From Bacteriovorax stolpii (GTDB taxonomy: Bacteria > Bdellovibrionota > Bacteriovoracia > Bacteriovoracales > Bacteriovoracaceae): a DNA stretch of 64,000 nucleotides. The stretch is taken from assembly GCA_945860895.1 (NCBI GenBank), contig CAMASK010000001.1:1-64000 (forward strand). The letters are read 5' to 3'. The notes under the pieces are model-generated. The model saw only the letters and a list, made by a program, of their open reading frames with translations. It did not search any database and was not told the DNA's origin. Both the position numbers and the translations under genes were made by a program. This document shows positions 20,481 through 23,999 of this stretch, piece after piece. Each line of letters starts with the position of its first letter. Positions within the stretch are counted from its first letter, which is position 1.

Positions 20481-21032
20481 ATGGCCATTATGAAGAAACA
20501 CGCTTTCATCCAGGTTGATTTTCAATCCTCAGTTAGGCTGAGTGCCTCCGAAAAGCATAAAATTGCTAATTGGCTTAAGATGGCTTCTGGGGTCATAGAA
20601 ATATTGATTAAGAATCATAAAATTATTCACTCTAGTTGGCTTAAAGATACTTCATGCATAAAAGTTTCGGTTCTTCTTTGCGGAGAAGCTAAAATAAAAC
20701 AGCTAAATTCTGAGTATCGTAATAAAAATAAAGTGACTGATGTCCTCTCATTTCCCTCTTTTAATTCTTTACGCAGGGCCAAAGAGAAAGGTGATTTTAC
20801 TACTGAAGAGCTATATCTTGGAGACCTGGCCATTTGTCATTCAAGGACAAAGCAGCAAGCACGAGACTTTAAAATTTCGTATTGGGACGAATTTATTCAC
20901 TTGTTCATGCATGGAATAATTCATCTTTTAGGTTATGATCACGAGCTTTCTCAAAAAGAAGAGAAAGTGATGCAGAATTTCGAAAATTTAAGTCTTGATA
21001 TGTTCTCAAAAGCAAAAAAAAAGGGTCCATAA
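20481..21032 (+). CDS. ybeY: Endoribonuclease YbeY
   Basis: Zn motif 'HLFMHGIIHLLGYDHE'; 'NSEYRNKNKVTDVLSFP'; ATG at 20481 preferred. Confidence 0.9.
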   Translation: MAIMKKHAFIQVDFQSSVRLSASEKHKIANWLKMASGVIEILIKNHKIIHSSWLKDTSCIKVSVLLCGEAKIKQLNSEYRNKNKVTDVLSFPSFNSLRRAKEKGDFTTEELYLGDLAICHSRTKQQARDFKISYWDEFIHLFMHGIIHLLGYDHELSQKEEKVMQNFENLSLDMFSKAKKKGP

Positions 21033-21059
21033 TTAGACTGTACCCTTAAAAAAGTACAT

Positions 21060-21929
21060 TTAAAAAAAACAGCTCAAAAGCCCCCGGCACTCTGCCGGGG
21101 GCTTTTTGTTTAAACCCTTTTGTGGACGTTCGTTATTGTAATATTCAATTGTCCTTCTGACTTCATCGCTCACTTCTTCATATGTTTTACATTGTTTTAC
21201 CTCAGCTAAGTCCTTAAATGTTCCAAAAAAGTTTTCAATGGGAGCATTATCTAAACAATTGCCTCTCCTGGACATAGATTGCGTTACACCAGATTGTTCT
21301 AACAGATTTACATAATGAGGATGGGTATATTGGAATCCTTGGTCGGAATGAATTAGCAAGTTTGATTTTTTATGCTCTGGAAGTTTAGACAATAATTTTT
21401 TAAATTCCTCGATGAATTGGCTAACTGCCGGTGTCTTCATCAAATTGTAGGAAACAATTTCATTAGTTCCGAGATCCTTGGTGGCTGATAGATAAGCTTT
21501 TTCGCATTTTCCATAATAAAGGTAAGTCATGTCAGTTGAGTAGGCTTGGTCTGGCAGTGGCTGAACAAAGTTTCTGTTTAAGATGTTCGGGATTAAATCA
21601 TGCACTTTGGCACTTGTGCTCATTCCTCTGTATGGGTTGCGCCTTCTAATTTTTGTGTGAAGACCATACTGGCTTTTAATTCTGGCTATCTTCTTGTGGT
21701 TAAATATGTGCCCATTCCTCCTTAGAATCATGTCTAGAGTTACGATTCCGGCCTTTCTTCGACTTTTCTCAAAATGATGACGAATGACTCTAAGAGAATT
21801 AAAGTCTCGAGTTTTTCTAGGTTCTTCGTTCTTCAAAAAGGCGTAATAACCACTCCTGCTCACCTCAGCGTAACGACACATCATGGACAAACAGAGTGAT
21901 GAATCTTTCTTGAGGGCCTCACGAATCAT
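21060..21929 (-). CDS. IS3-family transposase OrfB (DDE integrase core)
   Basis: 'YSTDMTYLYYGK...HSDQGFQYTHPHYVNLLEQSGVTQSMSRRGNCLDNAPIENFFGTFKDL'. Confidence 0.95.
   Translation of the reverse strand: MIREALKKDSSLCLSMMCRYAEVSRSGYYAFLKNEEPRKTRDFNSLRVIRHHFEKSRRKAGIVTLDMILRRNGHIFNHKKIARIKSQYGLHTKIRRRNPYRGMSTSAKVHDLIPNILNRNFVQPLPDQAYSTDMTYLYYGKCEKAYLSATKDLGTNEIVSYNLMKTPAVSQFIEEFKKLLSKLPEHKKSNLLIHSDQGFQYTHPHYVNLLEQSGVTQSMSRRGNCLDNAPIENFFGTFKDLAEVKQCKTYEEVSDEVRRTIEYYNNERPQKGLNKKPPAECRGLLSCFF
21076..21107. terminator. Strong bidirectional hairpin terminator inside the IS, overlapping the orfB 3' end
   Basis: AAAAGCCCCCGGCA-CTC-TGCCGGGGGCTTTT(T), perfect 14-bp stem. Confidence 0.8.
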
Positions 21930-21937
21930 CTCGAACT

Positions 21938-22312
21938 TTAAAGTTCGTCGTCCGAAAGGCCCCGGAGCTTTTTTAGATGAGCGATGACCTCTTTCTGGTA
22001 AGCATTTTCAGCTTTTAGCTCCTCAATGCTCATTTTGTGTATGGATTTATTTTTTCCACGCCTGTCGAGATAGGAAGGCATCTTACTTTGGGATCTCCAA
22101 CGAGTGAGGCAAGAATCTATGTAATGTTTATCGAAACAGGAAACACCAAGCAAATGATTAAAAAACTCTACTCTCGTAAACCCATCGGTTGGCCCAGCCA
22201 GGATTAACTCTTTGAAAGCTTCAGTGAATTGTACTTGATTCTTAGGGGTAACTTTCGCAACGTAGGGGCTACTAACTAGCTTTTTCCGCTCTGAGATTGA
22301 TAGGGCCTTCAT
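21938..22312 (-). CDS. IS3-family OrfA (HTH-type transposase subunit)
   Basis: Upstream of OrfB; ends HLKKLRGLSDDEL* over A_AAA_AAG. Confidence 0.85.
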   Translation of the reverse strand: MKALSISERKKLVSSPYVAKVTPKNQVQFTEAFKELILAGPTDGFTRVEFFNHLLGVSCFDKHYIDSCLTRWRSQSKMPSYLDRRGKNKSIHKMSIEELKAENAYQKEVIAHLKKLRGLSDDEL

Positions 22313-22427
22313 GATCTGCTCCTTTTAAGGATTTTAACCCGTTTTTCAGGCAAGCAGTTTTATTTGCTTGTCTAAAAAACGGGGTACAGATCATAATGGA
22401 CCCTTTTTTTAAGTATAATTAATTATC

Positions 22428-23780
22428 TTAGAGCTTGATAGCTTTCTGATCTTTTGAAAGAGCAGTCTTCAAATTCACTCGTCCACCAGAAACAATTTTT
22501 CCTTTAAATTCAGGAACAGCAACTGATGATTTCATAAGCACTGCTTTAAGCTGAACAGCTGTTAATTCTGGATAATATCCTAGAACCATAGCAGCTACGC
22601 CTGAAGTATTTGGAGATGCCATTGAAGTTCCTGAGGCCATTCCGTACTTGTTACCAACAATTGTTGAATAAATGTTCGAGCCAGGAGCAGCTAAATCCAC
22701 GGTGTTTTTACCAATATTTGAAAAACTAGAAAGTGAGCCTGAGCTAGTTGTAGAAGCGATAACCAATAAGTTTTCGCTATCGAATGCTGCCGGATATTTT
22801 GGTTCAACATCATTGTCGTGCCAAGCAAACGGACCAGAAGAATCGTTACCAGCTGAAGCTATAACCAGAACGTTGTACTGTTCGCCAATTTCATTGATTA
22901 CATCACGAACAACCATTCCGCCTTCATTAACTGATTTACCGAAAGAACAGTTGATAACTTTAGCTCCATTCTTGGCAGCATATTTGTAAGCTTCAACAAT
23001 ATTTGAATCAAGTTCATCTGAATCGTCAGGCACAGTTCTGATCGCCATAATTTTCACGTTATTAGCTACACCAGCAATACCTAGACCGTTGTTTTGAGTT
23101 GCTGCAATTGTTCCAGCAACGTGAGTTCCGTGCCAGTGAGAAGCCATCGTATTCATAGTTGCGCGGCCTTGAGCATCTCTGACCAGGGTATTGATTCCGT
23201 GAATATCATCAATGTAACCATTGTTGTCATCATCGATTCCGTTCGCAGGAATTTCATCTTCATTTGTCCACATGATATCTTTTAAGTCTTCATGATTGTG
23301 ATCAACTCCGGTATCAACAACTGCCACGATAACTTCCTGGGCATCTTTATTTGGAAGGGAATCATAAGCTGAACTTACATCCATACCAGTACGAGTTGTG
23401 AAGGCCCAAAGCTTTGAAGCATCTGGATCATTGAAAGACACAAAGTTGAAATCCGTAAAGCTCTTAATGGCCAAGGAAACATGGTCCAATACTTCAAGCT
23501 TAGGCATCATTCTTTTTTCGCCGTAGAAATCTTTTTGAGAATATTCAACAGAGTCATTGATCGAAAGCTCTTGAGTTAAATCCGAAAGATGATTGGTTTT
23601 AACTAAATAAAGATTACCGATAACTTTTTTTGCGCTCTTAATTAGGGGAGATTTCACCAAGTTCTGACCTGCTTTCATTTTGATAAACAAATGCTTAGGG
23701 TGAAAACGGCCACCAGAAGCCTGGGCAGACAGGGAAATTGCCGTAAAAATCATTAAAATTCCAATACTTAGCTTGTTCAT
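22428..23780 (-). CDS. Secreted subtilisin-like serine protease (S8 family)
   Basis: Asp 'VAVVDTGVDHNHEDL', His 'HWHGTHVAGTIAA', Ser 'ASGTSMASPNTSGVAAM'; signal peptide from M at 23780. Confidence 0.95.
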   Translation of the reverse strand: MNKLSIGILMIFTAISLSAQASGGRFHPKHLFIKMKAGQNLVKSPLIKSAKKVIGNLYLVKTNHLSDLTQELSINDSVEYSQKDFYGEKRMMPKLEVLDHVSLAIKSFTDFNFVSFNDPDASKLWAFTTRTGMDVSSAYDSLPNKDAQEVIVAVVDTGVDHNHEDLKDIMWTNEDEIPANGIDDDNNGYIDDIHGINTLVRDAQGRATMNTMASHWHGTHVAGTIAATQNNGLGIAGVANNVKIMAIRTVPDDSDELDSNIVEAYKYAAKNGAKVINCSFGKSVNEGGMVVRDVINEIGEQYNVLVIASAGNDSSGPFAWHDNDVEPKYPAAFDSENLLVIASTTSSGSLSSFSNIGKNTVDLAAPGSNIYSTIVGNKYGMASGTSMASPNTSGVAAMVLGYYPELTAVQLKAVLMKSSVAVPEFKGKIVSGGRVNLKTALSKDQKAIKL

Positions 23781-23999
23781 TAAACGCATCCTTTCTATGC
23801 AGGTAAAAGTCATCCAAACGATACAAGGAAAAGACTAATCAGCGCAACTTAAAGGTTCTGACTTCTGACAGGTAAGGAAACATTTACATTGTGCGTTATC
23901 TTGGTCCGTTTGCCTTGATACAATGGGTCAAGGAAAGGGTTGGTTTTTCTAGGATAATGTTTAAATCACCCATTCTAAAAACAAAAGGTTTGAACCTTC

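Follow-up and report, generated by a model that had tools for sequence, protein, structure and literature searches.

Targeting of hairpin loops is already known for several mobile elements, including IS1397, ISKpn1, and ISPsy8 in REPs, IS1272 in terminator hairpins, and the group IIC introns. In all five of five copies of ISPsy8, a member of the IS3 family, the insertion point is the symmetry axis of a predicted hairpin and the duplication is 3 bp (PMC1525189). IS1272 and TnSha1, of the IS1182 family, target DNA hairpins without a sequence consensus, transcriptional terminators among them (PMC4923244, PMC5678879), and for group IIC introns a rho-independent terminator stem-loop or an attC site serves as a generic target (PMC7923331). 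The IS1447 group, IS3-family elements enriched in Firmicutes, has ends starting with TA, duplications of 3 to 4 bp, and +1 transcriptional slippage on A9, with no terminator targeting reported for it (PMC6211511). Terminator targeting by IS3 or IS150 elements was not found in the literature searched, whose coverage is partial, most subscription papers and ISfinder notes lying outside it; the multiphylum IS3 clade aimed at intrinsic terminators that is described here is likewise absent from that literature, which is weak evidence that it is new.

The window analyzed here, a 64,000-nucleotide stretch of Bacteriovorax stolpii DNA, contains a 1,360-bp IS3-family element (21034-22393) with its transposase genes on the minus strand, lying between two convergent genes. 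ybeY, coding for an rRNA maturation RNase, extends from its ATG on the plus strand (20484-21032; TIGR00043, 116.5 bits against a cut-off of 45; Pfam PF02130), and an S8 peptidase gene is on the minus strand (22428-23813; PF00082, 181.1 bits). To the left of the element is a terminator arm (21014-21029) composed of A9 (21014-21022) and GGGTCCA (21023-21029), followed by the left copy of a TAAT target duplication (21030-21033); to the right are the second TAAT copy (22394-22397) and the other arm (22398-22410), composed of GGACCC (22398-22403) and T7 (22404-22410). Excision of the element with one TAAT rejoins the flanks as AAAAAAAAAGGGTCCATAATGGACCCTTTTTTT, and a 56-nt segment of this folds at -19.0 kcal/mol, with 14 bp in the stem and 3 nt in the loop. 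The loop TAA is the ybeY stop codon (21030-21032), so the YbeY protein is unchanged by the insertion, and TAAT is this loop plus one stem base. Because ybeY and the peptidase gene converge on the terminator, it serves both genes, and the peptidase gene now reads into the element in the sense of the transposase. The original prediction, of an IS3-family element in the loop of a near-perfect bidirectional terminator whose 3-nt loop is the ybeY stop codon, with the duplication formed from that loop and one stem base, is thus borne out by the sequence, the NF033516 match, and refolding.

The element has ends TAGACTGTACCC...GGGGTACAGATCA, and comparison with the ends of relatives defines imperfect terminal repeats TAGACTGTACCC (21034-21045, plus strand) and TGATCTGTACCCC (22381-22393, minus strand); together with a duplication within 3 to 5 bp these are traits of the IS3 family, and the duplications in relatives, as judged from their ends and refolded sites, are mostly 3 to 4 bp. 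The right boundary is independently confirmed by a 76-bp fragment elsewhere in the window genome that matches IS positions 1285-1360 with 100% identity and has the same end point within different flanking DNA. Unlike IS1272 and TnSha1, which have a transposase of another family, delete the stem-loop, and leave no duplication, the window element has left both arms and a duplication in place. Group IIC introns differ in being retroelements, with the stem-loop upstream of the IBS1 recognition sequence and not split in its loop.

The coding content is that of an IS3 element. orfB (21060-21929, minus strand) codes for a DDE transposase of 289 aa matching the IS3 model NF033516 at 237.8 bits (cut-off 160), with invariant D133, D196, and E232, the latter two separated by 35 residues. 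orfA (21938-22312, minus strand) codes for a clade-specific, helix-turn-helix (HTH)-like protein of 124 aa with a C-terminal helix, as judged from sequence and profile comparison and a predicted model; it appears to resemble HTH transposase domains, with PF20310 matching 23 of 26 members at E<=1, and the model, for which the alignment rows were genome loci only, is mostly helical (pLDDT 79), with no match at E<=0.001 in a fold search against the PDB. orfB is in the -1 frame relative to orfA, and a putative -1 frameshift site, the slippery heptamer A AAA AAG, is read in the orfA frame (21968-21974, minus strand), which is the usual IS3 layout. By published description the IS1447 group differs here, with +1 slippage on A9. 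In two Bacilli genomes (G432 and G656; L215, L216, L246-L258) the OrfA match falls within open frames 452 to 642 aa long, which suggests a fusion of OrfA with OrfB that needs no frameshift.

Searching the complete assembly at the DNA level finds one full relative, 65% identical, and two right-end fragments. With the window element, this IS type occupies four places in the window genome, and every one is a terminator, with differing arm sequences. The site of the full relative reads AAAAAAGGCTCC-GTA-IS-GTA-AGGAGCCTTTTTTT, and the arms flanking the two remnants are GGCTCC/GGAGCC and AAAAAAAGGC/GAGCCTTTTTTT. The other arms of the relative (GGCTCC/GGAGCC), together with the fragment boundary, show that the arms come from the target rather than the IS. 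The remnants, which have only right ends between terminator arms (L003, 1501-1576, 76 bp; L004, 1501-1594, 94 bp), look like deletions at short matches between a target arm and the IS (GCTCC and AAAGGC).

Unoccupied versions of the ybeY site are present in congeners of the window genome. The ybeY ends of 25 of these were read: by inspection, about 19 have a terminator-like hairpin with the stop codon inside its loop or adjacent to it, four more have a later stop, shortly downstream of the hairpin, and two have no hairpin. The stems differ in their letters and keep their pairing (GGGAGC/GCTCCC, GGGGCC/GGCCCC, GGGCCC, and others), and since these hairpins are unoccupied and paired despite the letter changes, the hairpin predates the arrival of the IS. 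The last codons of ybeY (KKKGP/KKKGA) are themselves part of the terminator (window 21014-21033; L034-L058).

Copies from the window's phylum were collected by protein and profile searches in 14 genomes, of which two single-contig genomes, G016 and G171, have seven copies each, all at different stems. In most cases the refolded flanks form an A-tract/GC-stem/T-tract hairpin with the IS in its loop. Scored with a strict fold test, the 23 two-sided sites include 20 at which a strong hairpin encloses the insertion, which counters a condition that the original prediction named for its own refutation, that other copies sit in nonpalindromic sites; 19 of the 23 pass as terminators. The background is low, with 27/12,000 random positions passing the terminator test in G016, 27/12,000 in G171, and 35/12,000 in the window (about 0.2 to 0.3%), and 99/12,000, 125/12,000, and 53/5,808 noncoding positions, respectively (about 0.8 to 1.0%). 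With terminator loops making up some 0.2 to 0.3% of positions in the two reference genomes and the window, chance is excluded for the window site. A gap-free palindrome score of at least 15 is reached at 17/23 sites versus 0.08 to 0.16% of random positions, and the centers of these palindromes are mostly within 0.5 nt, or about 1 nt, of the duplication, so that insertion is at the hairpin symmetry axis, as for ISPsy8. A small control sample comprises four insertions of IS3 elements from other clades in these hosts or related ones, three of them copies of a single element in G171 and the fourth in G100; none is in a strong hairpin.

There are three exceptions among the 23 sites: L025 and L082, in which the arms do not match, and L084, which has a weak hairpin and passes only a looser terminator test; the one-sided L064 is a further exception. 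The two flanks of L025 and of L082 are halves of different hairpins, possibly from recombination between IS copies or from misassembly. A duplex-energy score was dropped as too loose, with 12 to 19% of background positions passing, and was superseded by the fold-based and palindrome-center tests. Loci for which automatic end-finding failed or was unreliable are excluded from the counts (L010, L011, L013-L016, L164, L165, L168, L175, L176, L178, L180, and some single copies).

Relatives at about 35 to 45% identity in Bacillota, Mycoplasmatota, and elsewhere also split terminators. In Bacilli, where OrfA-profile matches gave multicopy sets with IS ends set by comparison of copies, 26/37 insertions pass the looser terminator test, against a background of 4.3% of flanking positions and 5.5% of flanking noncoding positions; only 17/37 pass the strict hairpin test, as do 9/14 further single copies, the ends of which were chosen from terminal repeats and duplication only. 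The exceptions are L230, L237, L252, and L259, together with L184 and probably L167. Judged by these sites, terminator insertion outside the window's phylum appears to be the same habit in a less clean form. The Bacilli relatives are like the IS1447 group, compared by its published description, in having TA-starting ends and duplications of 3 to 4 bp. In one Clostridia metagenome-assembled genome (L012), two right-end repeats are 48 bp apart upstream of the transposase. Similar terminator arms precede both repeats, which gives the appearance of a duplicated end; a probe around this locus gave few matches.

An OrfB tree unites the window's OrfA-type clade and its Bacillota sister in one branch with 100/100 support (31 rows). 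IS150, another IS3-family element, is on the adjoining branch and has a longer orfA of another type; the one copy examined interrupts the 3' arm, not the loop, of a hairpin that neighbors a hok gene. IS150 and ISKpn8 copies on two plasmids (L172 and L173) occupy the same place in the 3' arm of such a hairpin. In several cases elements outside the clade, on the branch with IS150, also split hairpins, and elements from Paenibacillus, Priestia, Enterococcus, and Secundilactobacillus outside the clade split terminator-like ones, which makes the trait broader than this OrfA type and not exclusive to the clade. The suggestion in the original prediction of hairpin-loop target choice in this lineage is therefore supported, although the choice is not confined to the lineage and extends through a large IS3 clade across phyla. 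The proposed likeness to IS1397 and ISKpn1 holds in part: these elements and ISPsy8 share with the window element IS3-family membership and a hairpin target, but they use one repeated REP family per genome, whereas the targets of the window clade are ordinary terminators with A/T tracts and unrelated stems.

We consider it likely that members of the IS3-family clade to which the window element belongs insert into the loops of intrinsic terminators, duplicating 3 to 4 loop bases. The terminator sites in many genomes, their centering within about 1 nt, the duplication of loop bases, and the variety of stems are all directly seen. The transposase would recognize the symmetric A-tract/GC-stem/loop/GC-stem/T-tract DNA, probably as an extruded hairpin (cruciform), and the cruciform loop would take a staggered strand transfer, with the IS ends joined across it at a stagger of 3 to 4 nt. 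The pathway would be the usual IS3 copy-out/paste-in, with a -1 frameshift making OrfAB.

Of the alternatives, the one that survives best, although we think it unlikely, is sequence-specific binding, in which the A-tract and G/C-rich half-sites are read as a symmetric linear motif and the hairpin is incidental. It draws on the A-tract-GG... arms in nearly all in-phylum targets, the A/T tracts on 16/17 strong palindromes, which is above the background share, and the GGGCC- or GGCC-type arms at 7/7 G016 sites, but identical IS copies in G171 occupy varied stems (GGGTACC, GGCGGTT, GGCCGGTT, GGGCAGA, GGGCTC, and GCCCTCTT). As the stems of identical copies differ in sequence, no fixed motif explains the choice of site, and the sites point to a structure, not a motif, as the target. 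Strong centered palindromes in the reference genomes frequently carry A/T tracts already (22/46 in G016 and 66/97 in G171), so reading of hairpins and reading of terminators are not cleanly separable. That the targets are specifically terminators (19 of the 20 hairpin sites) would also suit recruitment of the transposase by paused RNA polymerase or by the unpaired bubble at active terminators; DNA symmetry accounts equally well for strand transfer at the palindrome center, and we regard this coupling to transcription as somewhat less probable again. It is highly improbable that the IS inserts widely and that only harmless intergenic insertions, such as those in terminators, persist: selection does act against insertions in genes and terminators do sit between genes, but about 0.8 to 1.0% of noncoding positions pass the terminator test versus 19/23 insertions, the insertions are centered on the symmetry axis, and other IS3 elements from the same hosts lack the bias. 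Nearly every copy is flanked by arms, but that these belong to the IS ends is refuted by the different arms of identical copies in G016 and G171, the position of the duplications between arms and IS, and the empty hairpins at orthologous ybeY genes.

The window element carries a terminator hairpin of its own near its left end (21076-21106), with 14 pairs and a loop of 3 nt. It is embedded in the final orfB codons, is T-rich on both sides, lies about 45 nt past the ybeY stop, and could end ybeY transcripts. Most in-phylum members examined have a terminator-like hairpin inside the left or right IS end. The hairpin near the IS 3' end recurs in the window, L027, L031, L065, L066, L074, and L077, in L065 also within the last orfB codons, and in L022-L025 and L064 a hairpin is inside the other IS end instead. 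Terminators may be a safe harbor, because coding frames stay intact, here even to the stop codon, and because the IS-borne terminator could replace the split one. For the broader proposal, that a large multiphylum IS3 lineage takes intrinsic terminators, by their DNA structure and whatever the stem sequence, as general safe-harbor attachment sites, duplicating only the loop, with many members carrying replacement terminators near their ends such that insertion is nearly transcriptionally neutral, we put the chances at about even. Hairpin-loop targeting, so far a matter of REP repeats and isolated IS1272 cases, would then take in intrinsic terminators generally, in several phyla, and explain how such elements can accumulate with little harm. 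These elements make a clear test case for the reading of DNA hairpins by a DDE transposase, and their insertion into terminator loops beyond the ends of genes, with the coding sequence left unbroken, could make such a transposon a useful tool. For annotation, a terminator in these genomes may be split by about 1.4 kb.

A further feature is the leader (22295-22393, minus strand), in which RNA folding pairs the right terminal repeat with the orfA start region at -36.7 kcal/mol (z -6.55; z -0.72 without the outer 23 nt). The predicted fold would form over the orfA start only in transcripts entering from outside. Protection of the transposase genes from outside read-through is known for other IS elements, and by analogy the leader fold could shield the transposase from S8 peptidase gene read-through. 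The right terminal repeat recurs inverted at the orfA start (CAGATCATG; window 22295-22393), and the distant L065 (1-70) has the same inverted arrangement.
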